Positions 13,310-63,473 of a stretch of 64,000 nucleotides of DNA are shown one piece after another. The notes under the pieces were generated by a model. The model was given only the letters and a program-made list of their open reading frames with translations, was not told the DNA's origin and made no database searches. The DNA comes from Bugula neritina. Lineage: Eukaryota; Bryozoa; Gymnolaemata; Cheilostomatida; Bugulidae. The number at the start of each line of letters is the position of its first letter. Position 1 is the stretch's first letter. The translations under genes were made by a program, and so were the position numbers. The DNA lies in NCBI GenBank assembly GCA_964035545.1, contig OZ037765.1:34113504-34177503 (forward strand). The letters run 5' to 3'.

Positions 13310-16300
13310 CTAGAACAGGTCTCCGTTGCTGATGAGCTGTTGCCTGTCTTCCCGGTCCTTGTGGGCCAGTCTCTCTTTGTTCACTGGGGGACCTGTAACC
13401 ATAGCAACGCGTCAGCATAGCAATATGGAGACATAGTAACATGAACTCAGACTGTCTACTAGCATATATACTACAAGATTAGGAGTTATCTCTCCCCACT
13501 CACCTACGAAGCTGAGTAGAACGGGGAGAAATACGAGGCCGTGAAGCAGTCCAAAGGACACGATGCCGACGTACATCCGGAAGTAGAAGACGACAAATAT
13601 CTGGGAGTCAGCGAAGGCAAGCACTACTATACCGACTATCTTGGTGAATGTGATGCCGTTGAGTACCTGCAGGGAGATCATGTCTTCTATTATATTATAT
13701 TATATTATTTTACAATATATTACATTATATTACAATATATTATATTATATTACAATATATTATATTATAATAGTATATTACACTGTATATGCTATTATAC
13801 TATATGATATTATAGTATACTATATGGGTATATTATTATATTACAGTATATGGTAATATACTGTTATATTATACTACTAATATAATTATATGATATATTA
13901 CAATAAATTATATAAACAACTGTTGTGAGAGTAATATTAAAATCAAGCTGCAAGACAGCTGTGTATTGCCGTGTATAGCAAACAGCCTCATTTCTACCTC
14001 TGCCACCAGAGGGAGTGGAGATTAATGTAGAACTAAGACTATAAAGTAGAACTCACGGAGCTGCCCATAGTAGAGAGTGCGTGACGGGCTCTTTCAACTC
14101 TCGTCTTGAGGGGACTCACGGCAAACGAGCGGATGATGTGAGAACAGAATTCCACTGATATACCAACAGTCTGCGGGGAAATATAGTAGAGTATATGGGG
14201 GATATACAGTAGAGTATGTGGGGATATACAGTAGAATGTGTGGGGATATACAGTAGAGTATGTGTGGGGATATACAATAGAGTATGTGGGAATATACAGT
14301 AGAGTATGTGTGGGGATATATAGTAGAGTACGTGTGGGGATATATAGTAGAGTATGTGTGGGGATATACAGTAGAGTATATGTGGGGATATACAGTAGAG
14401 TATGTTTGGGGATATACAGTAGAGTATGTGTGGGGATATACAATCGAGTATGTGGGGATATACAGTAGAGTATATGGGGGATATACAGTAGAGTGTATGT
14501 GGGGATATACAGTAGAGTGTATGTGGGGATATACAGTAGAGTATGTGTGGGGATATACAGTAGAGTATGTTTGGGGATATACAGTAGAGTATGTTTAGGG
14601 ATATACAGTAGAGTATGTGTGGGGATATACAGTAGAGTATGTGTGGGGATATACAGTAGAGTGTATGTGGGGATATACAGTAGAGTATGTTTGGGGATAT
14701 ACAGTAGAGTATGTGTGGGGATATACAGTAGAGTATGTGTGGGGATATACAGTAGAGTATGTGAGGGGATATACAGTAGAGTATGTGAGGGGATATACAG
14801 TAGAGTGTGTGTGGGGATATACAGTAGAGTATGTGGGGATATACAGTAGAGTATGTGTGGGGATATACAGTAGAGTATGTGAGGGGATATACAGTAGAGT
14901 ATGTGTGGGGATATACAGTAGAGTATTTATAGGGATATACAGTAGAGTATGTGCGGGGATATACAGTAGAGTATATTTCATGACTCATAGGCTACTATAT
15001 TCTATGATATGAAAGCTTAGACTGTGAACCAACCATAACTAGGTTGACGAGAGAGACGGCGTTGAGGCTGATGTCCCACAAGTACATCAGGCCGAACATG
15101 CTGTTGACTATCATGGAGATGGTGACGACAGCGATCACCGCTGACCAGATGTCAAAGCCGAGGAGGAGGAAGGTGACGACAAACACGGCAGCCATACAGA
15201 TGAGCAGATTCTGCCAGGTCTGAGTGGCCACTGTCAGGTACTGCTCGTAGAAGACGTGCCATACACTGCCGGTATATAATAATACCGTATACGTACTATA
15301 TATGTATATGTGTATGTGAGTGGTAATATATGGTATACGGTCATGTAATATAATATATAATAAACAGTGACTGGCCTGAATACACAGCATTCATTAGACT
15401 ATATAGAGCACACAGGTTACAGTAACAGGTCTAGTAGAGAGCATTAGAGTTGATATACACACAGACAGACACACAGGCAGACATACACACAGACAGACAC
15501 ACAGACACACCTGTAGGGGAAGACCTCGATATCGTGGCACTGGGTACAGTTGTGTTGAATGGTTCTCTCCAGATCCTTGGCGAGGCCGAGAGAGAAGTTG
15601 AGGGCGTTGATATAGTCGGCGTCCTTCTGCAGCACAGTGTGGTACGTCATGTAGTAGGACGCCCCGACCTTTGTCTCAGAACCCGAGCCAGACAGCTTCA
15701 CAGCATCTCCGTATGCTGCATGACCCCTGAAAGTTATTACATAGTCTACACTCCTTGGAGTAGGCGAGGGTAAGTCTACACCCCTTAGAGTAGTATAGTA
15801 GTACACTCACCCCCTAGAGTAGTATAGTAGTACACCCCTTAGAGTAGTATAGTAGTACACCCCCTAGAGTAGTATAGTAGTACACCCCCTAGAGTAGTAT
15901 AGTAGTACACTCACCCCTTGGAACAAGCAGCTGTGGGATTGTCATGGAGATACCAGTCTAAATATTCCTTAAAATCTTCTGGTTTCGGCCTTCCCTTGTC
16001 AAACGAAGCGTTACAACTTTTACATCCGGGTGTCGTGGTATCTGAAAAACAGGAAATACTAAACTTGTCTGAGGAACACCGTTGATTCTGTGACTATTGT
16101 ATATGTAGGATACTATAAGCATGCAGTTACTATACTATAAGCATACAGTTACTATACTATAAGCATACAGTTACTATACTATAAGCATACAGTTACTATA
16201 CTATAAGCATACAGTTACTATACTATAAGCATACAGTTACTATACTATAAGCATACAGTTACTATACTATAAGCATACATTTACTATACTATAAGCATAC

Positions 16301-19300
16301 AGTTACTATACTATAAGCATACAGATAATATACTATAAGCATACAGTTACTATACTATAAGCATACAGATACTATACTATAAGCACACAGTTACTATACT
16401 ATAAGCACACAGTTACTATACTATAAGCATACAGTTACTATACTATAAGCATACAGATACTATACTATAAGCACACAGTTACTATACTATAAGCACACAG
16501 TTACTATACTATAAGCATACAGTTACTATACTATAAGCATACAGATAATATACTATAAGCACACAGTTACTATACTATAAGCAAACAGATAATATACTAT
16601 AAGCATACAGTTACTATACTATAAGCACACAGTTACTATACTATAAGCATACAGTTACTATACTATAAGCATACAGTTACTATACTATAAGCATACAGTT
16701 ACTATACTATAAGCATACAGTTACTATACTATAAGCATACAGATAATATACTATAAGCATACAGATACTATACTATAAGCACACAGTTACTATACTATAA
16801 GCACACAGTTATCATACTATAAGCACACAGCTGCCGCTACTAACCACTGGAGGAACAGAAAGTCTTCGTCCCGTTATCATCCACAGCGTACCGGCAGCAG
16901 GCTAAGCCTGACGCTGCCGGGGCCACCCATGAGAAATAGTCATCAATCCAGGCAGAGGCAGGGTGAGCAATGTATGTGCTATAAATATGTGTATACAGTA
17001 TAGTATGTATATTAGTATAGTATGTATAGAGTATAGTATGTATATTAGTATAGTATGTATAGAGTATAGTATGTATAGAGTATAGTATGTATATTAGTAT
17101 AGTATGTATATTAGTATAGTATATTAGTACAGAGTATAGTATATTAGTACAGAGTATAATATATTAGTATATAATACAGAGTATAGAGTACAGAGTACAG
17201 AGTATAGAGTAAAGAGTATAGAGTATAGTATAGAGTATAGAGTAGAGTACAGAGTACAGAGTATAGTATAGAGTATAGTATAGAGTATATTAGTATAGAG
17301 TACAGAGTACAGAGTATATAGTAAAGAGTATAGAGTATACAGTATATAGAGTATAGCATGTATACTAACTCACCCGTTGGGTTCCCCTGCTGCCTGGTAG
17401 ATCTGACCGGCCAGGGAGTCGTAGGGGCAGCCCGCGGACCCACACACCATATTCTGCTGCTGCCGGACGCTGTAGTCCAGCCCCGGCTTCACCACAAAGT
17501 ATAGCGGAGCTCCTGTGTATCGTAAGATACAGTGTATAGCAGAGAGTATGTACATGTAAGTGTATAGAGTATGTAGAGTATGTACAGGTAAGTATATAGT
17601 AGAGAGTATATAGAATATATACAGGTAAGTGTATAGAAATTACCTGTAGACAGGTAGGTGTTGATCTCAGACAGATAGTCGATGACGTAAGACCCGCGGG
17701 GCATAGACAGCGTCTGGTCGAGGCCGATATCCAGTTTGTTGACGACAGCGATACAGAAGCAGGCCCAGACGCCGAACACGAGGATGACAAGACTGCGCAC
17801 CCAGTCGGTGAGGAGACCAACCGAGTAGAAGTTCTTGAAGAACGCGTAGAGGATTCCCTCAGACTTATCAGAGTATCTTGGGGGAGTTATCTTCAGACAG
17901 CACGCGACGTCCACTCTGTGTTGCTGTGGAGTGAAACAGGTTATATATATATAGATAGAGGGGATAACTCTACATGCTAAAACTCTCGTTATTTAGAAGA
18001 TAATAAACAAGTCAGTTTGACATGACAGAAATATATGCACTTTGTCCCGCAGTAAACAGATTGACTATCACCGAGCAGGAGTTACAGCGACAACAAGAGA
18101 CAACTCATAATATAGCAGTGTGAGGAAAACTCCGACTCAAACATTGCACTGCACGAGATCCTGAGCTACAGGAGACCACGAGGTGGGGGGGGATACCAAC
18201 CTCACTCCTTTTCATATCCAGACTGATGATGCTGACAAAGCAGGTGATTTGAAGGAGGAAATCAAAGAGGACAGCAAAAGCCGAGTAGAAGGCAAACGTC
18301 TTGACAGCCGGCATCTCAGTCAACCCACCTGCAAGGAGAGAAGTACACAGCTAAAAGTCAAGGTCACTCGTACAAACACTCAGCTAGGGTCAAGGTGACG
18401 CTGACTCACACTCAGCTAAGGTGAAGGTGACGCTGACTCACCGAGGAAGAAGGCGCACACCTCCGTCAGACTAGTCAGCAGCATGCTGGGGCCGATCTTG
18501 CCGAGAACTCTGCCAATCTGTTCCTCCCTCGTCTCACTCACAGCTCTCTGGTCTCTCTGTGGAGGGAAGAGAACTCAATGGGTTACAAGAAGACAAGTAG
18601 CTGAGTGTTGGAATACTTTCAGAGAGACAGACACTGGTTGGTTAATGAACCCCTGTCTAACCAATCATCTACCAGTAACCGCTGCGCTACACAGAATGCA
18701 GTGCGCCATGACTCACCCCGAGAGCGTTGACCAGGATGAAGATGTTGTCGGTGCCGACAGCGAGCACGAGGAAGGGCACGACCTCCAGGATGATGAGAGT
18801 GAGGCTGAAGCCCATGTAGCTGTTGATGCCGATAGAGGAGGCGACGGAGAGCAGCACCACCAGGACTCCGCACATGCCCAGAGAGAACTTCTGCTGCACC
18901 TGCAGGAATAGCGTGTTACTATGGTAACAGTGTGTGTAACTATGTGTAATACAACTTGGTAAACTCAAGTAACTGTTGTTAGAACTCGAGTGCTAGCAAG
19001 AGAGACCGAGTAACAAGAGAGACCGAGTAACAAGAGAGACTGAGTAACAAGAGAGACTGAGTAACAAGAGAGACTGAGTAACAAGAGAGACTGAGTAACA
19101 AGAGAGACTGAGTAACAAGAGAGACTGAGTAACAAGAGAGACTGAGTAACGAGAGAGACTGAGTAACAAGAGAGACTGAGTAACAAGAGAGACTGAGTAA
19201 CAAGAGAGACTGAGTAACAAGAGAGACTGAGTAACAAGAGAGACTGAGTAACAAGAGAGACTGAGTAACAAGAGAGACTGAGTAACAAGAGAGACTGAGT

Positions 19301-22300
19301 AACAAGAGAGACTGAGTAACAAGAGAGACTGAGTAACAAGAGAGACTGAGTAACAAGAGAGACTGAGTAACAAGAGAGACTGAGTAACAAGAGAGACTGA
19401 GTAACAAGAGAGACTGAGTAACAAGAGAGACTGAGTAACAAGAGAGACTGAGTAACAAGAGAGACTGAGTAACAAGAGAGACTGAGTAACAAGAGAGACT
19501 GAGTAACAAGAGAGACTGAGTAACAAGAGAGACTGAGTAACAAGAGAGACTGAGTAACAAGAGAGACTGAGTAACAAGAGAGACTGAGTAACAAGAGAAG
19601 ACTCACCAGCACTTGAGGGGTGCAGCAGGGCAGCCAGTCTCCTAGAGCACAGGCTATGTAGAGGAACATGGCTAGATAGCTGATAGCGATAGTGGCCACG
19701 TCAGACTTACTCGCTCTGGCCAGCTCGTCTTCTATTGACCTCTACAACACGTGCCACTTAGTAATATACACACACGGCATATCTACACGGTAAGCTATAT
19801 AGTATATTATAGAGTATATTAGAATATACAAGATATACACATTCCTCAACCCCTACACTACAACATGCACAGTAAACTAGAGAGAGAGAATAACTCCAAC
19901 CTCCGCACTGTAAGCTATCATCATTCCCTTCTCCTCAGCCTCTTCTCTCACGAACCTCTCAACAAACGTCAAGTACTCTTTCTCCCAGGCTTTGGCCTTG
20001 GCCAGCCGAGGGTCGTCCGGGTTGTGATAGTTGTTGACAGTGAAGGTGACGACGTGGGCCGTGGCCTGCAGGTAGTTGTTACCTGCGCACACAGAACACG
20101 GTACGTTAGTCATGTCTCAGCTAACAACACTGTAACCGTGACAACACTGTAACCACGGCAACACTGTAACTACGGCAACACTGTAACTACGGCAACACTG
20201 TAACCATGGCAACTGAAGAGAAGATAAACTCACCAGAATAACCCCCGAGAGCCACCCAGGGAGAAACCGGTCCGCCAAACTCTGCCAGACAGCTGGAGGC
20301 CAGTTTAGTCGAGTCTATGGTCTGACTGGGATCTCTACAACATGCAGCTATATGTAAGTATATGTATATGTGTATATGTAGGCAGCTAAACTCTGCTGTA
20401 TGTAGGCAGCTAAACTCTGCTATATGTAGGCAGCTAGACTCTGCTATATGTAGGCAGCTAGACTCTGCTATATGTAGGCAGCTAGACTCTGCTATATGTA
20501 GGCAGCTAGACTCTGCTATATGTAGGCAGCTAGACTCTGCTATATGTAGGCAGCTAGACTCTGCTATATGTAGGCAGCTGTATGTAGGCAGCTAGACTCT
20601 GCTGTATGTAGGTAGATTCAGAATAAATAGAGAGACGACTCCAAGAATAAAACGAGTCTAACCCATACGACAGATATAAAAGGCAATACTGCAGCTATAG
20701 CCTAGCACACCGTGATACTAACAATGCATATACTACTGTAACCTTATCATAAAAGGGCCTGTATTTTTGCTAAGGATAATCTTCTGTAATAAAACATTAT
20801 ATTTTAGCAACAAGTTTAAATTCCAAATCTTCAATTACATAATAGCTACTAGACATTCCAAAGGTGTAGCACCAATCAGCTGCTATCAGTATAGATGGGG
20901 GGGGGTCCCGGAGTACACCAGCTGATGGTACTTTGTACTCTGGGGCTGTGATATCAGCCAGGGTATCTCAGAGTTGTACTCAGCCAAGGCCAGAGTGAGA
21001 TAAGACTGTAACACTGTAACACTGTAACACTGTAACACTGTAACACTGTAACACTGTAAGACTGTAACACTGTAACACTGTAAGACTGTAACACTGCACT
21101 GTAACACTGTAACACTGTAACACTGCGCTATGTGCTGTAACACTGCGCTATGTGCTGTAAGACTGTAACACTGTAAGACTGTAACACTGTAACACTGCAC
21201 TGTAACACTGTAACACTGTAACACTGCGCTATGTGCTGTAACACTGTAACACTGCGCTATGTGCTGTAAGACTGTAACACTGTAACACTGTAACACTGTA
21301 ACACTGCACTGTAACACTGTAACACTGTAAGACTGTAAGACTGTAAGACTGTAAGACTGTAACACTGTAACACTGCGCTGTGTTGTAGTTACTGGATGGT
21401 CCAAGGGTCACCCTAGCAGAGCACGTGTCTATCATATCACATAGTTCAGAGTGAACTTCAGAGTAAACTCGTTAGAGAAAGTGTGTGAGAATCAGACAAA
21501 ATGAACATCTACCAACTTTTAGAACAAATACAGCTTATAACCACAAACTTCTGCGTTCAGCTGCAGGACTTCTGCGTTCAGCTGCAGAAGTCCTGCATTC
21601 AGGTGCTGGAGTTCTGCATTCAGGTGCAGAAGTTATACACTCAGCTGTAAGGTACAACACAACCTGAAGGTATATTATGTAACAAACCCCAGCACTTCAC
21701 ATCTGTGGTGAGGTTGAAATGAATAGCTCAACAACAAACTTGACCTGGCTTACACAAGAGTCACTAGCCAAGCACTCAAGTCACTTACCAAGTACTCAAG
21801 TCACTTACCGAGTACTCAAGTCACTAGCCAAGCACTCAAGTCACTTACCCTGTACATGACTTGATATGGTCCACGTAATCGGCAAGAGTGTTGAAGAAAT
21901 CAGTCACTTTCCTCTCGAGGGCCGTCTCGTTGTTCTACAACAGACAGAAAGTGATGTCACAATGTACTCTATATCCTGTGCATAACAAGGAGGTTGATAG
22001 CAGAACTGGGCAGCTTATTTATTTGAATTTCTGTAAAGTTTGGTAAGATAACTCTAAACACACAGATAAGATAGTTGTCAGTTATCACGGCCTGTTATCT
22101 TAGCTATGGAAGGTGAGCAAGTGGGGGGGGGTTGACCTGCAGGTCGTTTACAGGAGAGTTTATCAGCTGTAATGACTGGCCATGTTAGGCCATAGGGTAA
22201 TGGAGACAAATTGAGTTAAGATGAAGGAATTAACTCGTTATTTCATATAATGACTGCCAAGAAGATTAGAAATATTCTGTTATACAGCTGAACAAGACAA

Positions 22301-25300
22301 GTCAGTTACTGTATAGTAACTTACCTGTAAGTAGTGTATAGTAACACACCTGTAAGTAGTGTATAGTAACTTACCTGTAAGTACTGTATAGTAACTCACC
22401 TGGAAATACTGCAGGACGCTGTTGATGACGCAGTTCTTATTGTCGGGGTAGAGCGGCTGGTAGCAGATATCCTCTAATCCCACAGTCTCGTTGTTGCCCA
22501 TGTCAGCCCTCAGGGCAGAGATGTTGTTTTGGAGGTACAGAAGCTAAAGAATGAAAGAGAGACATGAGTTCACAAGAAGATGTAGAGAATGCTGGCAGAG
22601 AGAAGGTAAAGCGCAGTATTAGTATGCAGTGGCTAGATCAGCTGAGAGCCACAGCACCTAGGGCTATAGCCACAGCACCTGGGGCTATAGCCACAGCACC
22701 TGGGGCTATAGCCACCTACACTTTACTCATCCATCTGCACCTCATATCAAACATGTGCCCAGAATCCTACAGCTAGCGGAGCAGAAAGTCGGGTGGGTAA
22801 TGCAGACTCACCTCCTTGAGGAAGTCGAGCTGGAAGCCGCCACTGATGTTGGTGTAGGTGATGGCGGGGTAAGGGTCCTCGTGCATTGAGCTCTTCCACT
22901 TCTTCGGGTCAAATCTGATGATAAGCTGCTCGGTTCGGTAGAAGGGGCTGTAAGGGACAGAAGTATAGTGTCAGGGTGGTGTCAGTATAGTGTCAGGGTG
23001 GTGACAGGATGGTGTCAGGGTGGTGTCAGTATAGTGTCAGGGTGGTGACAGTATAGTGTCAGCGTGGTGACAGTATGTGTCAGGGTCGTGACAGTATAGT
23101 GTCAGGGTGGTGTCAGTATAGTGACAGGGTGGTGTCAGTATAGTGTCCGGGTGGTGACAGTATAGTGTCAGGGTGGTGACACTATAGTGTCAGGGTGGTG
23201 TCAGTATAGTGACAGGGTGGTGTCAGTATAGTGTCCGGGTGGTGTCAGTATAGGGTCAGGGTGGTGACAGTATAGTGTCAGGGAGTTAGTGACTGTGAGA
23301 GAGTTAGTGACTGTGAGAGAGTTAGTGACTGTAAGAGAGTTAGTGACTGTAAGAGAGTGACTGTGAGAGAGTTAGTGACTGTGAGAGAGTTTGTGACTGT
23401 GAGAGAGTTAGTGACTGTAAGAGAGTTAGTGACTGTGAGAGAGTTAGTGACTGTGAGATAGTTAGTGACTGTGAGAGAGTTAGTGACTGTGAGAGAGTTA
23501 GTGACTGTGAGAGAGTTAGTGACTGTAAGAGAGTGACTGTGAGAGAGTTTGTGACTGTGAGAGAGTTAGTGACTGTAAGAGAGTTAGTGACTGTGAGAGA
23601 GTTAGTGACTGTGAGAGAGTTAGTGACTGTGAGAGAGTTAGTGACTGTGAGAGAGTTAGTGACTGTGAGAGAGTTAGTGACTGTGAGAGAGTTAGTGACT
23701 GTGAGAGAGTTAGTGACTGTGAGAGAGTTAGTGACTGTAAGAGAGTTAGTGACTGTGAGAGAGTTAGTGACTGTGAGAGAGTTAGTGACTGTGAGGTAAC
23801 TAAGACTCAGAGTACACTAACTTGAAAGTGCTGTCAAAGTAGTTCTTGTTGCTCCTAGTGACGCTGGTGGGAGCAGACCACAACTCCACGGGGTCGGTGA
23901 TGACCTTAGCGAAGTATATGCCAAAGGTCAGGATGCCGCATATGATGAAACTGATGACTATCACTTTAATAGGATGTCTGGCAGCTACACGGCCCCACCT
24001 ACAACAACAAAACAAAAATTAGTCTAGGAGAAAACTTGAATTAAAGTTAACAAGAAAAATTGAAATTGAACAACAACTATCATCAACTCATAAACGGTAT
24101 TCCAGATGACCTTCAACATACTGACAACTAAATTCAGGTATTGCTCACTACGTAGTCCTCTTGTTTACTGCTAAACACTCGACATATTCCTGCTCAGAGC
24201 ACCATCAGCAAACAATTCCCCGACCTTACTTATTCAATAGGAAATGCTAAACGGGCAGCGAAAGACGTACCATGAAAACGCTGACTCTAGCATTTGCTCC
24301 CACTTCAGTCCGATTTTCTCCAGAATATTCCCTCCGCGAGACTGACTGGCAGTGTGGGACCTGCTGCTGCTGCCGTTACCGAGTGTGGTGCGCACCTGCA
24401 GGAATAGAAGAGTTACCAGGTGATACACCTACCCTATCAGCAGTACTGCTTGTCTAACAGAGTATAATCTAGTGCAGCAGACAGCATTATATTATATGAT
24501 ATACAATATCATAACTCCATTAAATTGTTATATGATATATCATAGTATACATCACATTCATACATTGCTAACTAGAAACTATCTAACTGACACAGTACAC
24601 GTGTACCGAGTAAGGAAAATACCGGCACTACCAGAGAGTTAGTTACTCCACGAGATAAGAGTACATGAGGTGATGGAGATGAGGTGATAGTTTGCTCAGC
24701 TGATAAGCTGCTAGAGACAGACAAGAAAATCACTGTCTGCAGATGTAGAGATATGTGTGCAGATGTAGAGGTGTCTGCAGATGTAGAGATATGTGTGCAG
24801 ATGTAGATATGTGTGCAGATGTAGATATGTGTGCAGATGTAGATATGTGTGCAGATGTAGAGGTGTGTGCAGATGTAGAGGTGTCTGCAGATGTAGAGAT
24901 AAGTGTGCAGATGTAGAGATGTGTGCAGATGTAGAGATGTGTGCAGAAGTAGAGATGTGTGCAGTTGACAAAACTCCCAACTACACAGTGAAGCTGAGAG
25001 TGCATTCTGTTGGGTTATTCGGAGGCCATTGTGATAGCTGAAGATTGTTATCTAAATTATCGTGAGATTAGCGATGAATAGGATACAGTATTTGTACAGT
25101 GAGTACAATATGGCCGCAGCACGAGATGTACAGTGAGTACAACATGGCCGCAGCACGAGATGCAAAGTGAGTACAATATGGCCGCAGCACGAGATGCAGA
25201 GTGAGTACAATATGGCCGCAGCACGAGATGCAGAGTGAGTACAATATGGCCGCAGCACGAGATGTACAGTGAGTACAATATGGCCGCAGCACGAGATGTA

Positions 25301-32170: not shown

Positions 32171-32225
32171 CTGTGGGCGATGGCTTAGTGTGCTTTTGGT
32201 CAGGGGTTTGAAACCCACTTAGACC
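32171..32225 (+). mobile_element. tRNA-like SINE fragment
   Basis: An A-box-like tggcttagtgtg (from 32181) and a B-box-like ggtttgaaacc (32205-32215, one mismatch to GGTTCGANNCC) occur at tRNA-like spacing. There is no complete cloverleaf, so a decayed tRNA-derived SINE head is the best reading. Confidence 0.4.
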
Positions 32226-33434: not shown

Positions 33435-33465
<31 letters not shown>

Positions 33466-33480: not shown

Positions 33481-34809
33481 AGCATGAGCATCACATTTGA
33501 TTTTATGATTCACTATTACTATTAACTTCAAGTATTAGACTTGGTATTACTATTAGTATTACTATTAGTATTAGTATTACTATTAGTATTAGTAGTATTA
33601 CATTTACGTTTAGTTTTACTAAGCTATATTATAACTATTTTAATATAATTTCAAAACTAACAAACATATAAACGTAAAATATTAAGACGAAAAAGTAGGA
33701 GAAAGCACGACCTTTGGATTTCGTGCATACAAAAACAATCCATCCACTTGTCACAAGTTGAAGTTCAAGTTGAGTGCGTAGTTACATGTGAACGTTACCG
33801 TATCAGGTTGCTTGATGATTCAAATGACCTCTGTTGATATCAGAGTGGACTGATATAGCCTATTGCGTGCTTGGTAGTTGTCGCTTCTTATCGGATAAAA
33901 TCCGAAATTTATTTACGGAAAAAAAGCTAAATGTTTAGGCAAAAACCTTGACCTTGACATAGATCTAGTTTTTTGTGCAACAAGTTTTCTCATATAACGA
34001 CCCTGTCCAACAGCTGTAAGTTAGAGATTTTCTAATAATTTTCTGTCAAAGTGAAAATGAAAAGTTTAATAATAATATATCCATTCCATATTCAATATGA
34101 ATATGAATCAAACCAATAACAACACTATTTAATAGCAATATAGATCAATTAATTGTCAATATCATCCATTCGTTATTTAATTTGGTGAATGTTCTATGTA
34201 TTGAGCTATGAATATGAGTAAAATTTCGAATAAGAATTGGGTCAATTTCAATTTGACTTCGGTTTTACTTTTAGTAACTTTTACTTTCAGTTTCAGTTTT
34301 ACAATAACAATTGGATTAGGAATTGAAAATCAAAACAAAAATAAATTTCAATTTGAATTTAGATCGCATTTACTTTTAGTTTTACTCATATCCATACTGT
34401 CTAGTGTTATTGACTTGGTTTTGCTTTAAATGATAAATCTAACGTATTTTTTCCAAATCATAATTATTTTACTTTTACTTTTAGTCTTTGATGGCGTCAA
34501 CCTAAACTTGTAGTTCAAGTTGAAGTTTTTTAATGGTTAGTAATAGCGGATTATTAATACTAATAGTTGCAATCTATCTTTCTCTTTTATTATTGTATAT
34601 AAATAAATTTACTAATAATAATAATAATTTTATACTTATAAATATAAATTATAATTATCCTCATCTTGGTAATAATCATTCTAATACTAATAGTAGTAGT
34701 GAAATGATGCAACTGCAAGGTGGCCAAAGCCCTTCGAAATTGAATTTATAAATATACAAGCAACATCAGATATTGTAATGGTCACTTGTCTAATTTCAGA
34801 TCTGAAAAG

Positions 34810-52700: not shown

Positions 52701-55700
52701 CTATATGTTGTTATGTATGTATATATTATTACTATTACTATATCATGCTGATATGTATGTATATACTATTGTTACTATTACTATCTGTTGATATGTATGT
52801 GTATATTATTATTACTATTACTATATTATGCTGGTATGTATGTATACTATTATTACTATTACTATATGCTGATATGTATGTATACAGATACAGAGACTTA
52901 CAATGACACATCCTCTACTAAAGCTCATGACACTAAAACCTCATTGAGAGGAGAGAAAGAGAGATCTACTGTATCCATGAAGCCTCCTTTACCAGTGAAC
53001 GGCGCCATCAGGTTTGTTAGTTAACTTACCATAGCATTGCTGCACCTTTAGTCCATGTGTTCTGAAGCTAATGGATAGAGTATTTTATACAGTAACATAT
53101 ATTTAATTACAGAGTGAATTGGGTTTATACTTCAAAGGAACATTGATTCTAACCCTAATTCCATGCACTTTATTCTACAGTAAGGGGAGTGCAATGGGGA
53201 AACCTGTGAGACAGAGCACCCAGTCTAAGTTACCGTGGATGGACAAGTCACTGGAACCAGTGTCTGCTGTAACTCCGCCTACTAAACAGATCTCGTCTGC
53301 TGCACCACACTGGTTGGACAACTCCAAGTCTAACCCTCTCCGGTCTTCTTTAGACGACATGTTGGAGGCTCTGGACAAGTGGGAGCCTGCAGACGTAGGG
53401 CAAGTATTTCAGTAATTTCTCGTTTCTGCTCTCAGTCTAACTTGAAATATATGATGGTTGTTGATTTGATGCACGAGTAATGCTCTGGTGTGTGTCACTC
53501 AGTCACTCAGTTACTACTCTGTTGTGTGCCACTCAGTGACTCAGTTACTACTCTGTTGTCACTCAGTGACTCAGTTACTACTCTGTTGTCACTCAGTGAC
53601 TCAGTTACTACTCTGTTGTGTGTCACTCAGTGACTCAGTTACTACTCTGTTGTCACTCAGTGACTCAGACACTACTCTGTTGTGTGTCACTCAGTGACTC
53701 AGTTACTACTCTGTTTTGTGTCACCCAGCTACTACTCTGTTGTGTGTCACTCACTCATCTCCAACTCCCATCCCGAACCCTAATTTTAAAATTGTGCCAT
53801 TTTTACCTTCTTTGCCACTTATTCCATTATTACCTGTGCCATTTTTACTGGACACCGTTTACCATAGTCTCGGCTACCAGCTATTGCTGACATCTATCTT
53901 CTTTTAGATAATCTATTTTATTGTAAACATGAAACCGTAGCTTGCTTACCATTTATGGAGACATTCTAAATCTTTTCAATGTAGAGCAGTAGAATTTTTT
54001 ATTTAATGTTAATAATTTAGTAAATTTTGTAGAAAAGATAAACTAAAAACTATATTTGATGAAACTGTGGGACATGATATAACACCCCAACCATCTCAAG
54101 GTGTTCCTGATAAAGGTGAGTTCAGATTGTTCCTATTAATAGAAGTGGCACATGTTGTACTACGAACTATATGTCTGTTTAATACTAAAGTCTGGCAGTA
54201 TGTATGTACATCACAACAATGTCACATTGTGTAATGACACGTGTATAAATTACAAATTATGAGTCATAATAATTTGAATGAGACACAAGGCAAGCAACAA
54301 ACATCTAATAAAATATGTTGAAATTTTAACCTTTTTTACACACATTATTATCAGTGTGCATGCAGGCTTTATTTAGCTTGGGTTCCTATTTGTTCTTATA
54401 CAAATTTTTATGGAGGCGCTAGCATTTTACAGCCCAAATTTTACTGAAAGAAAGCAAAAATATTCAATAAATTAGAATTCTTTTTGCATTTACGCTTTTT
54501 ATGTTTAAAATATTTCTATGCTTGAAATATCAAAGCCTAGCCTAAAGCAGTCTCGCAGTAAATGCAGTAGTGATGTAGTTATAAGATAATGTAACAATAC
54601 TCTCCCCAGTTGCTACGGAGATGGAAGACTCTGTGTACATACGGGCTGCTAGTCGGGAAATGATGGCCAAATCCAACAGCTCCGTCACCACGACGTCTCG
54701 CAGGAAGAAGTGGCAGCAGCCCTCAGCTGACCTGGAGGCCTCTTGGACGTCTCTGGATATATTTGCTAAATCTCATAAAGGCAGACTTTCTATGGAGGGT
54801 GAGTGTGTGTGTGCGTGTGTGTGTGTGCGTACGTGTGTAAGTGAGTGTGTGAGTGAGTGTGTGTGTGTGTGTGTCTGTAGCTATGTGTGCATCTGCGTAC
54901 ATGAGTGCGTATATAATGCAGTGTTATTGCGTTACAGGGGATACACTGGATGAATATCTGCGTACCGTCAGCACCCCTGGAACAGGCATCACTGTGGATG
55001 GCTCCTCCCAGAAACCGGCTGTCACCAAAGTCCCGACAGCTCCCTTGCAGACGATCTCCGAGGAGTAGGTTTAGAGTTGTGGTCTCATGTTACTAGTAAC
55101 TTCTTACTAGGAGTTAGTTGGCAAGAAAGTAGTTCTCAGTGTCGTGAAGAGTATTTCTAAGGCTGTTGTGTTTCTTGTCATGCAGAGCCCCGTTTATCAT
55201 CCCAGAGTTGCCTCACGGCCAGAACATGATAATCAACATAAAGTCAACATGGGGAGATAAATACTATGTCGGGCTCAACGGCATCGAGTTGTTTGCTGAC
55301 AACGGGGAACCCATCTCCATATCAAAGGTAGAGAGATCTGGCTATTGCCATTAATCATGTGATGAGAGTTGAGTTATAATATATTGGAACACTGTTACTA
55401 ATTAATAGATAGTTGGAGAAAGTGGAAGACACTTCTATACCATATTATTTTATTTATACCAGAATTTTGCAATAAAGATTAACATTAAATATCGTAGTAA
55501 CTTATTCTAATACTTCCTGTGATTTATTCTAGTACTTCCTGTGTTTAGTCATAGCCAGACGGTGCTTGAAGAGGGGTTGTTTGAAGACCCCCTCACCTCT
55601 TCTGTCTCGCACTAGTCCCGGGAATAGAGACTTCACTCAGTCTCATTGGTCTCTTCAACTACACACTATGTTATACATATATGTAGATACAAGCTGACCC

Positions 55701-58700
55701 GAGAGACATCAATGTCCTTCCAGACTACAAGAATGACCCCCGAGTGGTGACCAACTTGACCGACGGCGTCAACAAAACCCGAGACGACATCCACATGTGG
55801 CTGGCTCCTTTCACAGACGGCGGCAACCATTTTATATGCGTGACCTTCAGCCAACCTTGTCATGTGGCTCTGCTGCGAGTCTGGGTGAGAGAAATGTAGA
55901 AATATTAGACATCATTGAGTGATCGGAGAGCTCAAAGGAGTTGATGTTATATCATAGGTTCACGGTCTCCTGTTTGTATAAAGCTAGGTTTAGTACTGTA
56001 CTCTGTGCGCTACAGAAGTAGTTTGAAATTTGAAAAATTAAAATATTTTTGAAACGTACGAAGATGAAATATTAGCAAGAATTACTGCATAACCCATTCT
56101 TAGGTTAGTTTAGCCCTTTCTTTATCACATGACACACTTTGTAATGGTTGAAGCATGATTGGTAAGTTTTCCAGCTTTCCAGTGATACAGAAGGGTAGGC
56201 AACTTCTGACAGTGTGGGCTAAATATTATATTTTCTATTACCATTAAATGATTAACGTGGAGTCATCCCACAATGCAATGCATGAATTTTCCGCCTTTTA
56301 TAATCACATTACGTATAATATTATATTATATTGAGTCGTTTGAAAGCGTGTTTTTATGTTTAAATATATAATTAAATGTTGAATAATATTGCCCATGGAT
56401 ATGAATTTCATACAAAGCGTCACAAACAGCATACAGGAACTAGTGGTTAGCACTATGAAAATACTGAATAATCAGATTCATTGATGTTGTAGAATTACAA
56501 CAAGTCTCGGATTCACTCATACAGAGGAGCTAAGGATGTAGAAATATCACTGGACGGGACGTACATCTTCAAAGGAGAGATAGCTCGTGCTTGTGGCGGC
56601 ACTCAGGGTGGTACTGAGGCTTTTGGTGATGTAAGTATTCAGTCTGACTTTTTAGAAGTTTAGCTTAAGGTTAAACAAGCTAAGCTTTTGGGGTTCTTTC
56701 TTCAAACGAAAGAATTTTAAATTTGTCTCTAGACAGACAATTAGACGTGTGTAACTGTTGATAGAAGGAGGTTGTCTTTCATTAAACTGGCGAAAATTCA
56801 AGCAAATTAAACATTTTATGAGAAATTTCTCTCTAATAGTATATCATTACATAATGTATTCAGCTGGTTTTATCTATTATTATGCAATATATATAATATG
56901 TATAAAACTTTTGCCTCCTCTGGGATTCGAACCCGAGACCTTCGCTGGGTAAACTCATCACTACAATATGTTCATTATATTAAGATAAATATAATATATA
57001 TTATATTTATCCTAATATATATTAGAGTAAATACAATATGTGTTATAATATAAATATAATATACATTATAATACATCTAGCTAACACACACAAAGTACAA
57101 GATATTAACTAGTTTCACACACTGCGTATTTTAGACGATATTATTCACCATGTCTGATGAAATACTGGACGCTGTGTCGCGACACGACGGGCAGTACGAG
57201 GGAGGCAACTTCTCGGATGAGTGGGAGGATGACGTGCCGTACGATGCCAGACCTGCTACGGCAGACAAAGGAGACTCGGTGAGTTTAGTAGACTGTGAAC
57301 TTAGAGAATAGCCAGCGGTCCTAGCATCCACTGCACTCTATTAGTATCAGTGGCAGTGACTTGATATTGAGTCACATTCAAATATATAAATACCTGGGCT
57401 GAAGCAAGAGCTAATAGCTAACTTATAAATACAGTTAATATAAAAATATGTAAAGGTTGTAACCTACAGGCTGCTGTGGCTGTTCAAACAAAACACTTTT
57501 TAGAAAAAATCGATTCTTTTTAGGCTCAAATTTACAATGTGATTCCCAAATATGATATTTTTCTTTAATGGCTGAATATGGTGAATTATACAATCAATAT
57601 AAAAGATGGTATGATATAATATGATATGATGCTAACATTGTACTTCTAATTCATTTCCAGATAAATTCACCCAATCAGGTAGTTCCCAGTCTATCTTTTC
57701 AGTTTCTGGTTTTTCCTGTCCATCTGCATACATCTGCATACATCTGTATTACTCTATCTGCATACATCTGTATTACTCTATCTGCATACATCTGTATTAC
57801 TCTATCTGCATACATCTGTATTACTCTATCTGCATACATCTGTATTACTCTATCTGCATACATCTGTATTACTCTATCTGCATACATCTGTATTACTCTA
57901 TCTGCATACATCTGCATTACTCTATCTGCATTACTCTATCTGCATTACTCTATCTGCATACATCTGCATTACTCTATCTGCATTACTCTATCTGCATTAC
58001 TCTATCTGCATACATCTGTATTACTCTATCTGCATACATCTGCATTACTCCATCTGCATACATCTGTATTACTCTATCTGCATACATCTGTATTACTCTA
58101 TCTGCATACATCTGTATTACTCTATCTGCATACATCTGTATTACTCCATCTGCATACATCTGTATTACTCTATCTGCATACATCTGTATTACTCTATCTG
58201 CATACATCTGTATTACTCCATCTGCATACATCTGTATTACTCTATCTGCATACATCTGTATTACTCTATCTGCATACATCTGTATTACTCTATCTGCATA
58301 CATCTGTATTACTCCATCTGCATACATCTGTATTACTCTATCTGCATACATCTGTATTACTCTATCTGCATACATCTGTATTACTCTATCTGTATTACTC
58401 TATCTGCATACATCTGTATTACTCTATCTGCATACAGCTGTAATATTTCAATTGTTTGATTTTGATATTCTCAACTTTCACTATGTTATGTAATTCTGTC
58501 CTTTCTGTGTTTAGAGTTAACATATTTCCTGACGTAGCGATATATAATATATAGCAATGACTTTTAACATGTAGCACTAGATTCCCCAGCTAAGCTTTAG
58601 TGGAGAAATTTCATCAATATAACTTATTCATTTCAATATCCAGTCTAAGATTTTATCTGAAATATTCTGCTATAAAGTTATTCCATGTTCTAAATTCTAC

Positions 58701-61700
58701 TCTATGATACATTATATACAATAAATACAGTCTTTCTCAATGAGGACACTCAGTTACTAGTCACTTGTATGTGGAGGCAATAAATTAGCTCTCTAGTATG
58801 TTTACATGGATAAGTCTAGTCTTTGTTTCACTCAACATGTCTGCATGTAACCTTTACAGGATAGACCTAGGACCAGTGTGGAAATGAAGAGTCAGAGGAA
58901 GCCCCCAGTACACCACTCGATAGTGACACCAGCCAAGACGTCAGTTGTAAACCCTGATGTGTCGGCACCAGTGCCGGTGGCTGTAGACGGGAGTACCCTA
59001 GTCTACCAAACTAGTAGTAAGTACTTCCTTCTCTCCCTGACTTACTCTCTATCACACAGATACTCTGTATAGCCTGTGTTTCAGCTCTCCAACTGGTCTT
59101 TACGGAGACGTGGGGTGACCCACACTACCTCGGACTAACCGGGTTTGAAGTCGTGGGTAAGGATGGCGAGGCACTTCCTCTCACAATGAGTATGTTACAC
59201 GCCGAGCCCCGTGACCTTCACATTCTTCCTGGCTATGAGACCGATGATCGTACCTTCGACAAGTAAGAGTTTTGTTTATAATCTTTAGATGCTTTGCTTA
59301 GAGATAAAACGTTTTACTCCTGTGTGTGTATATATACACAGACAAGGGGTAGTAACACCTGTATGTGTAGACAAGGGGTAGTAACTACTGTATGTATGGA
59401 CAGGGGGTAGTAACTCCTATATGTATAGACAAGGGGTAGTAACTATTGTATTTACAGACAAGGGGTAGTAACTACTGTATGTAAAGACAAGGGGTAGTAA
59501 TTCTCGTATTGACAGGGTGATTGACGGAGTAAACATCACCGTCTCTGACGAACACATGTGGCTGATCCCATACACGGCCGGAGCCAACCACACTGTCACC
59601 ATTTCCTTCTCCAAACCAGAAGAGATTGTCGGACTTCGGTTCTGGAATTACAACAAGTCAACAGAAGATACGTACAGAGGTGTAAGTGTGTTACTCTCTC
59701 CTTGATACTTACCTCTGTACAGAGGTGTAAGTGTGCTACTCTCTTCTTGATACTTACCTCTGTACAGAGATGTAAGTGCGTTACTCTCTCCTTAATAATT
59801 ACCTCTGTACAGAGGTGTAAGTGTGTTACTCTCTCTCTATCTTACTTACCTCTGTACAGAGGTGTAAGTGTGTTACTCTCTCCTTGTTACTTACCTCTGT
59901 ACAGAGGTGTAAGTGTGCTACTCTCTCTATCTTACTTACCTCTGTACAGAGGTGTAAGTGTGTTATTCTCTCCTTGTTACTTACCTCTGTATAGAGGTGT
60001 AAGTGTGCTACTCTCTCTATCTTACTTACCTCTGTACAGAGGTGTAAGTGTGTTATTCTCTCCTTGTTACTTACCTCTGTACAGAGGTGTAAGTGTGTTA
60101 CTCTCTCTATGTTACTTACCTCTGTACTGACAGTATTTTCCCGCAGGCTAAAACAGTACATGTAATGTTGGACAACTCCCCGATATCACCACCTCAAGGT
60201 TTTCTCATCAGGAAAGGTCCTGGAAACTGCTTCTACGACTTCGCGCAGGAGTTGCTCTTCTCCGATATTCTCAGACACATCCAACTGGACTCACAACTCC
60301 CCGAACTCAACAAGTCAGTTACTACATGCATTATACCTGTATACTACTCACCTGTATACTATATACCTGTATACTGTATACCTATATACTACTCACCTGT
60401 ATACTATATACTTGTATACTACTCACCTGTATACTGTATACCTGCATACTGTATACCTGTATACTATATACCTGTATACTATATACCTGTATACTATATA
60501 CCTGTATACTGTATACCTGTATACTGTATACCTGTATACTATATATACCTGTCTACCAGTGCTTTTATTAAATTTCCGTATTTACTCAATTTTGTAGCAA
60601 TGACACAAGTGCAGACGACTCTGAAGATTATGTTATCTCTGGGAATATGCCCAATGGCTGTATCTTTTGCCTCACCACAGCTAGTTTGTTTTGTAAGATA
60701 CAAGTATTAACATGCTGTTTGGAATTGTGTTAATTGAAATGGAAACCCAAAGACATTATAATTCAATTACCATTTATGAATTAATTTGTGGTTTTTGTAA
60801 AGCTACTTTTCTAATGCTATAACATGTCACCATATTTGATATTGTCCTTAATATTTGCAATCAGTTGTTTATCAGTTCCATTTGCTGTCCACTCAATCTG
60901 ACTTGTATTATGTTGGACTAAATGCCATCGAGTTCTTTAACTCTGAAGGAAAGAAAATAGAGTTGGATGAAAATAGTAAGTGCTCTATGATGAATATAGG
61001 TCAACATATAAGTCTGTTACTACACTACTAGTGCTGTGATATATGCAGTAGGCTATACACAGATATTCTATTGTATCTTACGTTGTGTTCCTACTTGTTT
61101 GTGTAGAAATTGAATATAAAACTATTGTTTCCCATAATGGGTGGAAAATTACTTGCTGAAACTTAAGTTTTTTTAAACCGGAACTGATTGGTCAGTTTTT
61201 AGTGTCAGTGTTGCTGACTCATCACTAGATGAGTAATACAAGTGTTCTCTCTCTGTCATTGCAGACATCGCTGCTTACCCAGAGAGCGTGAACGTCTTGG
61301 ATGGTATTGAAGGTGACGTGAGAACACCCGATAAACTAGTCAACGGCATGAATGATACCAACAATGGAGACCACATGTGGCTGGCCCCCATACTCCCTGC
61401 CATCGTACGTTGAGATTCTAGTTGTTTTTGTTTGAATCGGAGTTCCCAAACTATTTCCTCTCCCCTTTTGAGCTGTGCTGTCTCCCCCTAAACCACTTGC
61501 TAATGTGATTCTACTCTGTAGTAATTATGGCCAGCATTACATTGCCAAAGTTATTTTGTTCTGCTCATCATGTCTAGGCCGTTCCATTCCTACAAGCAGT
61601 GTCACTATTTAATAATAATAAACTGAGCAATAGTGTTAATTTCAAACCTTCGGTACTTATTATATAGAGTAAACAGTGAAACTGATAAGTGGTTTTACAC

Positions 61701-63473
61701 AATTGAATGATTCTATTACAGGAACACTTACTGTAGTATGAAGGGCAGATTACTCCAAGTAAACTTAATTTGTATTTCATGGGCTAAGATTTGTTACTCT
61801 AGGAAGAACTGTGGGATATATTAAGTTTAGGCTAGCTTACTCATGTGTATAACATAAAATATGAACATATAATTCTTATATAACTGTTTGATTTGTTAGT
61901 TAATTGGCTGATATTTCCTGGTTGTCGCATTCATGTACACCGTACTGAATTAATATCTATTTTCAGACTAATCGTCTTTTTGTCATCTTTGATTACCCGC
62001 AAACTGTGTCTATGATAAAGATATGGAACTACAGCAAAACACCAAGTAGAGGTGTCAAGGATTTTGCGGTGAGTTATCTCCTCTTCTCAATACTTGCTAT
62101 ATCATATACTAGGGAGTTGTGTCCACACTACACCCTAAACTAGGGAGTTGTGTCCACACTATACCCTATACTAGGGAGTTGTGTCCACACTATATCCTAA
62201 ACTAGGGAGTTGTGTCCACACTATATACTATACTGGGGAGTTGTGTCCACACTATATACTATACTAGGGAGTTGTGTCCACACTATATCCTATACTAGGA
62301 AGTTGCGTCCACATTATACCCTAAACTAGGGCTTAGCTTTCTCTACTAGACGCAATGTATCAAGCATATTATGTCAGTTAAATCAGCTGTGAACCAATCT
62401 CATTGGTTGCCTATCTCAGTGTTGATTGGCTGAGTTGTTCCACTTGTACTGGGCTGTATATTATCATTAGTAGTAAGAAATACTGTGATGTCAATTCCAC
62501 CTCATGACATGAGTTGAGTCACTGTGCTACGGACTGACCTGTAATCTTAGTGCATTGACTTCTAGTTTGCATAACTATGAATTAGTATCTTACATCGTGA
62601 ACAGTATGGAGAGGTTATTGCTGTCACAGGCATCTTCAGCTTTAAATAATTTCTATTCAACATGTTTAGTATTTGTATAGCTAGCAAGTTGGCTCATAAA
62701 TTTCTATATTGTTTGACTATATACAGCTCCTAGTAGATGACTTACTTGTCTACAACGGAATGCTGGGTCCAGTGAGGTACGGCAAAGGGATATTACCCAA
62801 TAGTTTAGGACCACAGTCTTTTCAAACTGTCCTCTTCACCAACAACAGGAAGATTAAAGACAAAGTCAAACACACCATAGTCAGGTATTTCACAAGAGTC
62901 ATAGATTGTCAATAGCAAACGCTTTTAGCTGATGAGTCTATTTTGAAAGCTTCAAGAGTTATCATAGAACCTCACAAGCTACCAATATGCTGATACTTAG
63001 TCAGGGGATAAATTTCAACCTTTTGCATTTCTTAGTATTTTTTCTCTTTTGCAGTAACAAAACTGAAAACTTGGAGGTTCAACTAACTAATGACAATCAG
63101 GTTGTTTCTAAACCTTCTCAGAGTAAACTGCAGAAATCTGCAGATCAAGGTGGGGCTTCAGTAACTTTTCCACATATTATACTTGTTTTTTGATACTCAA
63201 CACGACACACTTTTATGACTGGAAGAATTCAACTACAATGCAACACTTAGAAACAGCATTCAACTAATTTGTTGTTTAAGTTGCAGTGTTAGCTGCTCCA
63301 CTATGGCAATCATATCAAATATTATGTATTGCAAGGCACTATTATGTCAGGTTATTAAAACATATCAAAGAAATTTGTTGAATCATTTTTGCTTATATAA
63401 AACTTGTTTGTATTTCACAGCTCTCCGTCCCAAGACTAGTGTACAGAAGAGACCTTTGGGGAAAAGGAGGTGA
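43705..63473 (+). CDS. KATNIP: KATNIP (KIAA0556), katanin-interacting ciliary protein
   Basis: The 35 exons are 43705-43723, 43903-43995, 44117-44186, 44558-44727, 45082-45264, 45785-45852, 46498-46590, 47235-47370, 47468-47542, 48020-48174, 48787-48984, 49400-49597, 49782-49916, 50174-50333, 50858-51070, 52888-53011, 53181-53399, 54033-54115, 54610-54798, 54938-55064, 55186-55327, 55687-55884, 56493-56630, 57135-57278, 58860-59016, 59085-59262, 59516-59681, 60147-60313, 60598-60659, 60865-60975, 61265-61404, 61967-62068, 62727-62884, 63055-63149, 63421-63473. The total is 4719 nt (1572 aa); human has about 1618. KATNIP binds microtubules and katanin at the ciliary base. The N-terminus has GYDEYLFLLQQRN; exons 6-8 are acidic. 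Four DUF4457-type modules, each with WNYNKS or a variant, lie in exons 12-14, 21-24, 26-28 and 30-33. It ends ALRPKTSVQKRPLGKRR. Introns 13 and 17 appear to be GC-AG. The exon 2/3 junction and exon 15 start (50858 or 50819) are ambiguous. Confidence 0.95.
45275..45460. repeat. AT-rich minisatellite at the KATNIP exon 5 donor
   Basis: Copies of ataacataatatataataat beginning about 10 bp beyond the donor. Confidence 0.88.
46010..46485. repeat. 29-bp minisatellite, KATNIP intron 6
   Basis: About 16 copies of a 29-bp unit (gtagcacctgctactggtg then tcatcaagct), ending just before the exon 7 acceptor. Confidence 0.95.
46588..46700. repeat. Donor-containing repeats, KATNIP exon 7
   Basis: The exon end and donor (tct/gtaagtatat) recur three to four more times at about 25-30-bp spacing as ctctgtaagtatat, with cttacctctgtaag forming a small inverted element at each boundary. 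Confidence 0.88.
48178..48780. repeat. Minisatellite filling KATNIP intron 10
   Basis: About 13 copies of a unit of roughly 47 bp (gtgttatatatagtaatata, then ttcacagtaatatagtaata). It runs from donor to acceptor and leaves almost no unique intron sequence. Confidence 0.93.
49085..49395. repeat. 17-bp minisatellite at the KATNIP exon 12 acceptor
   Basis: About 18 copies of gtgatcatgtgaccctt, running into the exon 12 acceptor. Confidence 0.95.
49675..49781. repeat. Acceptor-side repeats, KATNIP exon 13
   Basis: Four copies of cacgctattggctgtatt plus variable bases. The last copy ends in the functional acceptor ctgtag. Confidence 0.85.
51062..51190. repeat. 19-bp array of decoy donors at KATNIP exon 15
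   Basis: Six copies of gtgagtcattctgataatg follow the exon, whose own last bases are tctgataatg. Each copy repeats both the exon end and GTGAGT. Confidence 0.95.
51350..52680 (+). mobile_element. 5'-truncated non-LTR retrotransposon (LINE)
   Basis: A continuous frame of about 400 codons to the stop at 52575-52577 shows reverse-transcriptase motifs: TGVKQGCVIAPTLFSIF, then the catalytic YADD at about 51615-51626, then the LINE-typical NYLGSCLS, LLYASETW and RILGVKW blocks. It ends with a C2H2 finger (CPHC...HLRTH). The endonuclease and 5' part of the RT are missing, so it is dead on arrival, though its frame is undamaged. It lies in KATNIP intron 15 on the coding strand. Clade not assigned. 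Confidence 0.9.
52680..52880. repeat. Array between the LINE tail and KATNIP exon 16
   Basis: Units of gctgatatgtatgtatata plus (ttactatta)n. The final unit supplies the exon 16 acceptor (gctgatatgtatgtatacag). Confidence 0.88.
53490..53760. repeat. Minisatellite, KATNIP intron 17
   Basis: About eight copies of tcactcagtgactcagttac and tactctgttg(tg) in the intron that starts with a GC donor. Confidence 0.9.
54800..54900. repeat. (GT)n-rich tract at the KATNIP exon 19 donor
   Basis: gtgagtgtgtg-type dinucleotide repeat starting at the donor and containing several gtgagt hexamers. Confidence 0.88.
56905..56970 (-). mobile_element. tRNA-like SINE fragment
   Basis: On the minus strand a perfect B box (ggttcgaatcc; plus 56923-56933) sits about 30 bases after an imperfect A-box-like tagtgatgag. 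The T-arm pairs poorly and there is no full acceptor stem, so this is not called as a tRNA gene. It lies in KATNIP intron 23. Confidence 0.4.
57661..57678 (+). other. Candidate 18-bp microexon of KATNIP
   Basis: A strong acceptor (ttcatttccag) and a CAG/GTAGTT donor bracket 18 bases coding INSPNQ. It would keep frame between exons 24 and 25, and a tandem array starts just after its donor, as at many real exons here. Not included in the model; needs transcript support. Confidence 0.3.
57715..58440. repeat. 24-bp minisatellite, KATNIP intron 24
   Basis: About 30 copies of ctgtattactctatctgc plus atacat, with truncated copies near 57900-58010. Confidence 0.97.
59290..59515. repeat. Acceptor-side minisatellite, KATNIP exon 27
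   Basis: About seven copies of acaaggggtagtaactactg plus tatgta. The last unit provides the exon 27 acceptor. Confidence 0.9.
59670..60130. repeat. Array of decoy donors copying the KATNIP exon 27 end
   Basis: About eight intronic copies of a roughly 55-63-bp unit containing tgtacagaggt/gtaagtgtg. Bases tacagaggt are the last coding bases of exon 27. Each junction reads acttacctctgtacagaggt, then gtaagt, an almost perfect palindrome. Confidence 0.95.
60320..60560. repeat. 15-bp minisatellite at the KATNIP exon 28 donor
   Basis: About 15 copies of actatatacctgtat (variants actcacctgtat, actgtatacctgtat) starting close to the donor. Confidence 0.93.
62095..62335. repeat. 28-bp minisatellite, KATNIP intron 32
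   Basis: About eight copies of actagggagttgtgtccaca plus ctatatcct, starting about 25 bp beyond the exon 32 donor. Confidence 0.93.

Follow-up and report, generated by a model that had tools for sequence, protein, structure and literature searches.

Excerpts of two reports on amphioxus describe mirages, minisatellite-like tandem duplications that extend over an exon-intron boundary, at donors as well as acceptors, in the genes for Adh3, the globins BflGb6 and BflGb9 and troponin C, with similar structures in PGBD5 (PMC3087553, PMC3902484). According to the same excerpts, the units have gene-specific lengths (10-72 bp in Adh3, 150-160 bp in the globins), many repeats carry AG/GT signals, and the structures, which are unstable in length and said to leave splicing normal, are proposed as a route to new introns (PMC3087553, PMC3902484). 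Here we describe tandem arrays at splice sites in a 64,000-nucleotide stretch (the window) of contig OZ037765.1 of the bryozoan Bugula neritina, where they occur in the genes NPC1, NPRL3, and KATNIP, and compare them with SNRNP200 in the right flank and with loci elsewhere in the genome (215.85 Mb searched, in 295 contigs). Like amphioxus mirages, the Bugula arrays that cross a boundary hold it in minisatellite-sized units (13 of the 57 arrays in a strict set from the four genes). Unlike the amphioxus mirages, which are known from single chordate genes, these 13 arrays lie among 95 introns of four neighboring genes; many more arrays adjoin a site without containing it, acceptor crossings are fewer than donor crossings, and one array piece is identical in two introns. 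Based on their edge-bearing, minisatellite-sized units, we assign the 13 crossing arrays as putative mirages; the other 44 strict arrays are not claimed as such. Literature searches found no report of such boundary arrays outside amphioxus. The original prediction knew of no description at this density; the kind of structure is known from amphioxus, but its occurrence in this phylum is new, as are its density (arrays take up 48% of the DNA in introns versus 9% between genes), the tolerance of arrays at donors and their avoidance at acceptors, and a 137-bp piece common to two introns.

Two further systems invite comparison. Excerpts of a third source describe intron gain of the AGGT type (potato RdRp; a 24-bp segment in fission yeast) as arising from tandemly duplicated units that contain both AG and GT (PMC4974935). 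Some Bugula units have AG and GT as well, but the crossing arrays stand at one end of an existing intron, and none of the 13 spans both ends of its own intron. Introner-like elements, which are near-identical elements in many introns, could likewise put similar sequences into many introns; in Bugula, the units are mostly private to one intron. In the window and right flank, 13 pairs of arrays have at least two 12-base words in common, and two pairs have more than 10 (56 and 24). The claim that almost no unit is shared is thus correct for most arrays, but not for these pairs or for the intact copy in SNRNP200 described below.

The gene models come from masked sequence read by eye, with both splice sites placed for 70 introns (24 in NPC1, 12 in NPRL3, and 34 in KATNIP; labeled n, r, and k, see Table 1); for NPC1 intron 1 the acceptor alone is known, and its array was kept out of the counts based on 43 arrays. 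The spliced frames are open in all three models, the spliced products match the Pfam NPC1 and NPR3 domains, the NPC1 and NPRL3 models are collinear with PDB chains (for NPC1, over the alignment up to near its end), and NPRL3 (65% identity) and KATNIP align to proteins of Watersipora subatra. Given the protein, a purpose-written spliced aligner regained 12/12 NPRL3 introns. Nine of the 14 junctions with a boundary array in KATNIP and NPRL3 are gap-free against the W. subatra proteins, including r3, r5, r6, r7, and k27, where the frame is therefore intact. The r10 donor was shifted by 24 bp after this comparison, which left the counts near splice sites unchanged. At the k7 junction (46591-47234), the W. 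subatra KATNIP is ~21 residues longer, and a small exon may have been missed in the intron. Two of the 70 introns, k13 (49917-50173) and k17 (53400-54032), begin with GC (GCAAGT). An Rfam scan of the window gave nothing at gathering scores.

Tandem Repeats Finder (TRF; score at least 50) identified 55 arrays, spread over 46 of the 70 introns, and the strict set (score at least 100 and period at least 10) keeps 43 of these arrays and drops 12. Arrays are present in 19/24 NPC1 introns (20/25 including intron 1), 8/12 NPRL3 introns, and 19/34 KATNIP introns, which agrees with the expectation of about 20 of 25 for NPC1 and many for the other two genes, and the intronic arrays total 15,487 bases, with 34,259 intron bases in these genes. 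In the four genes, with 95 introns and 57 strict arrays between them, arrays make up 47.9% of the 41,877 bp of intron, 9.0% of 13,516 bp between genes, and 0.8% of coding sequence. The position of arrays was compared with two nulls: one in which array lengths are kept and each array is placed at random within its own intron, so that free space alone counts and arrays filling short introns are allowed for, and a harsher one in which an array may extend into the exon by as much as one unit, as could happen with neutral duplications. Under the former, 32/43 strict arrays reach to 20 bp or less from a splice site, or past it (16.0 ± 2.2 expected). With crossing allowed, 31/43 lie at an absolute distance of no more than 20 bp (16.1 ± 2.7 expected), 14 of the 43 are within 10 bp of a donor (4.6 ± 2.0 expected), and the full set of 55 arrays gives 34 within 20 bp (19.2 ± 3.0 expected); in the four genes, 37/57 are within 15 bp of a site (19.3 ± 3.0 expected). 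The excess at donors is also seen in introns with at least 200 bp outside strict arrays (23 arrays, four genes): the zone from -25 to +20 around the donor holds 8 arrays versus 1.8 expected, and the donor is crossed by 5 versus 1.5 expected. The arrays are thus not randomly placed in these genes, as originally predicted; the accompanying description of them as centered on splice sites is right as to closeness, but most adjoin the site.

The prediction that in the best cases the unit contains the donor or acceptor plus adjacent exon bases is borne out by 9/43 strict arrays of the window, which cross the boundary and have units with 1-24 coding bases beside the splice site. Seven cross a donor (exon bases reached: n10, -12; n11, -1; r3, -6; r6, -6; k7, -3; k15, -10; k27, -10) and two cross an acceptor (r5, -18; r7, -24). 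In the four genes there are 10 donor and 3 acceptor crossings among the 57 strict arrays, with an overlap of a single base in 1 acceptor and 2 donor cases; the units of these 13 arrays are 19-45 bp, and that of NPC1 intron 1 is 63 bp. Comparison of units with exon edges had been proposed as a check, and the gene's own donor word recurs in 8/14 donor-near arrays of the window (shuffle p ≤ 0.05) versus 0/29 others; the own acceptor word recurs in 2/9 acceptor-near and 1/14 donor-near arrays. Donor-like sites (>3 bits) are present in 14/17 strict arrays that start by +6 of a donor, many of them at multiples of the unit and up to 25 per array, and in 14/17 donor arrays no inner site surpasses the authentic donor.

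Against the null in which crossing is free, donors are crossed about as often as expected (10 versus 9.3), whereas acceptors are crossed less often (3 versus 9.3, p 0.0075). Donor edges tolerate arrays and acceptor edges avoid them, an asymmetry that fits splicing, because an exon-side donor would still work while a duplicated acceptor offers an earlier AG. Crossing alone does not show the exon boundary to be the seed of amplification, as had been supposed. We consider it probable that the arrays are mirage-type minisatellites, in which gene DNA including its edges has been tandemly multiplied, and which likely persist as splicing ignores the inner copies. The first copy would arise by template switching or slippage in repair or replication inside introns, with copy number then altered by slippage and unequal exchange. 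Duplicating a donor would do no harm, because exon definition would still rest on the donor nearest the exon, whereas an extra acceptor would carry more risk, given that splicing tends to choose the first AG after the branch point. By piling up repeats in this way, introns would grow with their splice signals as both starting point and limit. The modest preference for donor edges that is left over in long introns may reflect birth in shorter introns or a real donor hot spot.

In one case, array DNA is shared by two introns. A run of 137 bp is identical at 72890-73026 and 74565-74701, 1.7 kb apart in two SNRNP200 introns of the right flank; the former is the entire TRF array of its intron, and the latter is part of the boundary array of another intron. 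Coding bases from the exon of the second intron are part of the unit, so the copy likely went from the second intron to the first, and since no base differs over 137 bp the copying is recent. This piece represents array copying rather than local slippage. A different pattern is found in the orientation of donor words. Among the arrays of the window, its flanks, and the sampled loci, eight have at least two exact AGGTRAGT words: antisense in n18, k7, k27, k28, one SNRNP200 array, and one SCAP array, sense in n10, and one unplaced. The six antisense arrays lie no more than 18 bp from a donor (for SCAP, by rough alignment), and a seventh antisense array (locus L037) is ~260 bp from a predicted donor. 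As RNA, the antisense arrays would read ACUUACCU or ACUCACCU, sequences like the 5' arm of U1 snRNA.

Beyond the three genes, the right flank holds most of SNRNP200, identified via a match to human Brr2, and the part covered has 25 introns (placed with the protein-guided aligner), 14 strict arrays, 3 donor crossings, and 1 single-base acceptor crossing; 10/14 arrays lie within 15 bp of a site (6.5 expected, p 0.02). New loci were annotated ab initio, using the three genes as the source of the codon model and the splice matrices, and 105 introns were kept. With the test gene left out of the codon model, 48/53 predicted introns were exact and 48/70 true introns were found, an optimistic result given that settings were chosen after seeing it and that the test gene had contributed to the splice matrices. 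In the loci beyond the three genes, with the ab initio version of SNRNP200 counted in, 15/25 strict arrays lie within 20 bp of a site (10.3 expected, p 0.013); distant loci alone give 5/9 (2.2 expected, p 0.028), and all 53 array rows outside the three genes give no clear excess (18 versus 14.4, p 0.12). The proposed comparison of array-to-splice-site distances hence yields a clear excess in the three genes and a weaker one elsewhere. A left-flank gene with a fatty acid desaturase domain (PF00487) has an array that crosses a predicted exon edge (-11). SCAP (on C3) has 1.9 copies of a 50-bp unit, 42 bases of which belong to a predicted exon, probably an early-stage, two-copy boundary case on a predicted exon. 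SCAP had been picked up as the second sterol-sensing gene on C3 for dating the arrays via an NPC1 paralogue, but it is too distant for whole-gene intron comparison.

Several observations weigh against the reading of the arrays as mirage-type minisatellites ignored by splicing. Use of the outermost site is inferred from conserved frames, and in 3/17 donor arrays the authentic donor is not the best site (an inner site beats it in k15 and k27, and equals it after rounding in k7); acceptor array r5 has five upstream sites scoring above the authentic acceptor. The r4, r10, k7, k10, and k15 junctions (5/14) are gapped against W. subatra, which makes these edges less sure. Plain boundary duplication gives no explanation for the antisense donor words in several arrays. 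The rough alignment sets the SCAP donor 49 bp earlier, in which case the two-copy array would be intronic. SNRNP200 alone has 10 arrays within 20 bp versus 7.8 expected (p 0.11), and outside the three genes the count within 10 bp is not significantly raised (8/25 versus 6.0, p 0.20). Lastly, loci sampled elsewhere are array-poor (arrays occupy 8.2% of the bases in predicted introns and 3.1% of the remaining sequence), and the window is therefore an array-rich place near a chromosome end.

The alternative that survives best is that geometry and selection suffice: arrays would arise anywhere while introns are short, and later arrays or transposons would lengthen the introns and leave the old arrays at their ends. 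This is a real possibility, albeit one to which we give less than an even chance. The match of donor crossing to the permissive null is what it predicts, and the share of crossing arrays is alike whatever the free intron DNA (5/22 below 100 bp, 3/12 at 100-200 bp, and 5/23 above 200 bp). Array-free introns are as short as 68 bp, and in k15 an open reading frame with a reverse-transcriptase domain lies between two edge arrays, which shows how birth in a shorter intron could look. The donor crowding in long introns is harder to reconcile with it. Decayed arrays, considered as a filling of long introns, do not visibly fill them: non-array intron DNA has only a modest, weak tandem trace (0.104 versus 0.067 shuffled), below that of intergenic DNA (0.157 versus 0.059), and a single non-array intron piece matched other DNA examined.

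A transcription- or splicing-linked break or pause near the donor could instead start the duplication. Such a hot spot, which we regard as rather unlikely, would account for arrays being five times denser in introns than between the same genes and for the donor bias in long introns, but short introns have no crossing excess (donor crossing 4 versus 6.4 expected). An R-loop-linked origin, one of the causes originally suggested, is not favored, since G exceeds C on the sense strand in 27/57 arrays, i.e., with no skew. Hairpins were rejected as the seed: donor windows fold alike with and without a near array (25 versus 58 windows, p 0.77), and unit palindromes are hardly above shuffled sequence (4.76 versus 4.60 over 50 arrays), with six single units, among them n18, k7, and k27, palindromic beyond shuffles. 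Genome-wide, three AGGTRAGT words within ~80 bp gave 3,207 matches versus 85 for the reversed pattern; the matches overlap, so that one array counts several times. This 38-fold ratio, too, would speak for a hot spot, but it is inflated if introns, with their many donors, are the main place where arrays form. Outside arrays, in ~250 kb of DNA, a single copy of the word is only 2.2-fold commoner than its reverse (29 versus 13), and the ratio would be higher in intron space alone, so that 38-fold overstates any seed bias.

In the window, the strict donor triplet has a single occurrence, antisense within the k7 array. The matches listed fall into 15 distinct places on C1 (0 to 8.57 Mb), of which 13 are within 2.7 Mb of its start. 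Four of these 15 were read, and in three the array starts at the donor of a predicted exon, in the same orientation as that exon. The first follows a caspase exon (PF00656 match) with the unit GTAAGTGTACAAGTTAGAG; in the second, the unit consists of GTAAGTC and a copy of the last 12 bases of a predicted exon with no Pfam match, which, judging by a motif, looks like part of a monocarboxylate transporter; the third adjoins a predicted 36-bp exon of weak score that ends in TCTGAACAG. The fourth is antisense to a predicted gene, in mid-intron. Tentatively, exon-intron edges of Bugula, donors above all, might be genome-wide birthplaces of minisatellites, from which introns would grow outward and array DNA would be copied to other introns; many arrays would become rows of sense or antisense donors, several of the antisense ones (with their likeness to the U1 arm) just behind donors.

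Intron creation, in which the introns themselves would stem from an AGGT-bearing piece of exon duplicated in tandem (the Rogers model), was among the possible causes named in the original prediction and is very improbable: the arrays of k10, n8, n16, and n19 fill almost the whole intron, and AG/GT is found within some units (n10 and genome places read), but a duplicated exon piece would cross both intron ends, as no crossing array does, and by eye the exons downstream of r6 and k27 lack the unit. The longest array in the window's introns is 1,432 bp, below the length of typical HiFi reads. That the arrays are an assembly artefact is hardly credible, although tandem arrays are difficult to assemble, because the assembly is built from 132-fold PacBio HiFi reads with a QV (quality value) of 53.7, according to an excerpt of its description (PMC11480708).

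Table 1. Gene models, arrays, and related features; positions are those of the window, with introns labeled n (NPC1), r (NPRL3), and k (KATNIP), and a slash marking the exon edge.
Feature	Position	Strand	Description
NPC1	13310..30644	-	Coding exons 2-26, introns n2-n25 (24 with known ends); reading frame, Pfam, PDB alignment
NPRL3	34804..42107	+	Introns r1-r12; reading frame, Pfam, PDB and W. subatra alignment
KATNIP	43708..63473	+	Introns k1-k34; reading frame, W. subatra alignment
NPC1 intron 1 array	30637..30775	-	Unit 63 bp; overruns acceptor by 8 coding bases
n5 array	27606..27807	-	Unit 41 bp; starts at first base of donor
n10 array	22307..22411	-	Unit 25 bp; 12 exon bases; CAG/GTRAGT or CAG/GTGTGT in units
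n11 array	21759..21849	-	Unit 20 bp; GGTAAGT donor in part of units
n16 array	18348..18441	-	Unit 32 bp; from donor to 19 bp before acceptor; intron 113 bp
n21 array	15777..15910	-	Unit 25 bp; begins 4 bp past donor; GGGGTGAGTG repeated in inner copy
n23 array	14175..14974	-	Unit 24 bp; stops 4 bp short of exon
r3 array	36966..37177	+	Unit 37 bp, holding exon end and donor copy
r5 array	38656..39024	+	Unit 32 bp, 11.6 copies; acceptor and first 18 coding bases copied
r6 array	39113..39648	+	Unit 28 bp; 6 exon bases and donor; 19 more donor-like sites
r7 array	39889..40045	+	Unit 35 bp; acceptor and first 24 coding bases copied
r10 array	41006..41330	+	Stops 5 bp short of exon
k7 array	46588..46700	+	Unit 25 bp; TCT/GTAAGT and antisense donor ACTTACCT; exon edge unconfirmed by W. 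subatra
k10 array	48178..48780	+	603 of 612 intron bp (3 bp from donor, 6 from acceptor); edges unconfirmed by W. subatra
k15 array	51061..51181	+	Unit 19 bp, 6.4 copies; 10 exon bases and GTGAGTCAT; edge unconfirmed by W. subatra
k15 open reading frame	51243..52574	+	Reverse-transcriptase domain (RVT_1); between two edge arrays
k19 array	54799..54878	+	GT-rich, from donor on; outside strict set
k27 array	59672..60127	+	Unit 45 bp, 10 copies; 10 exon bases and donor (GTAAGT and more)
Arrays with sense RNA repeating ACUYACCU (complement of 5' splice site)	46588-46700, 59672-60127, 60332-60545, 17531-17637; 73572-73720 (beyond window); SCAP (L009+L010); L037 686-888		

Three side observations concern the wider genome. 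On C1, the tandem donor arrays among the matches listed are concentrated near the end of the chromosome. Two 20-kb stretches (L015-L016, C1:15.0 Mb; L023-L024, C2:19.0 Mb) consist wholly of one 20-bp satellite, CTGAAATATACTGCAACATA, with no introns, and are perhaps centromeric. Seven contigs (C71, C90, C139, C186, C195, C211, and C147) show long matches to chaperonin or sterol-sensing sequences, largely or wholly unbroken, and are perhaps bacterial or other foreign DNA.

Few natural test cases exist for asking how introns lengthen and how splicing copes with many good extra sites. The Bugula genome likely offers hundreds, given 3,207 overlapping matches and ~15 places per 100 listed rows, in which up to 25 donor-like sites stand beside one authentic donor, in addition to rows of acceptors. 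Two haplotypes of Bugula are deposited (the alternate being GCA_964035465.1), in which the birth and growth of arrays could be timed. These findings suggest that mirages occur more widely among animals than in amphioxus, from which they are known.

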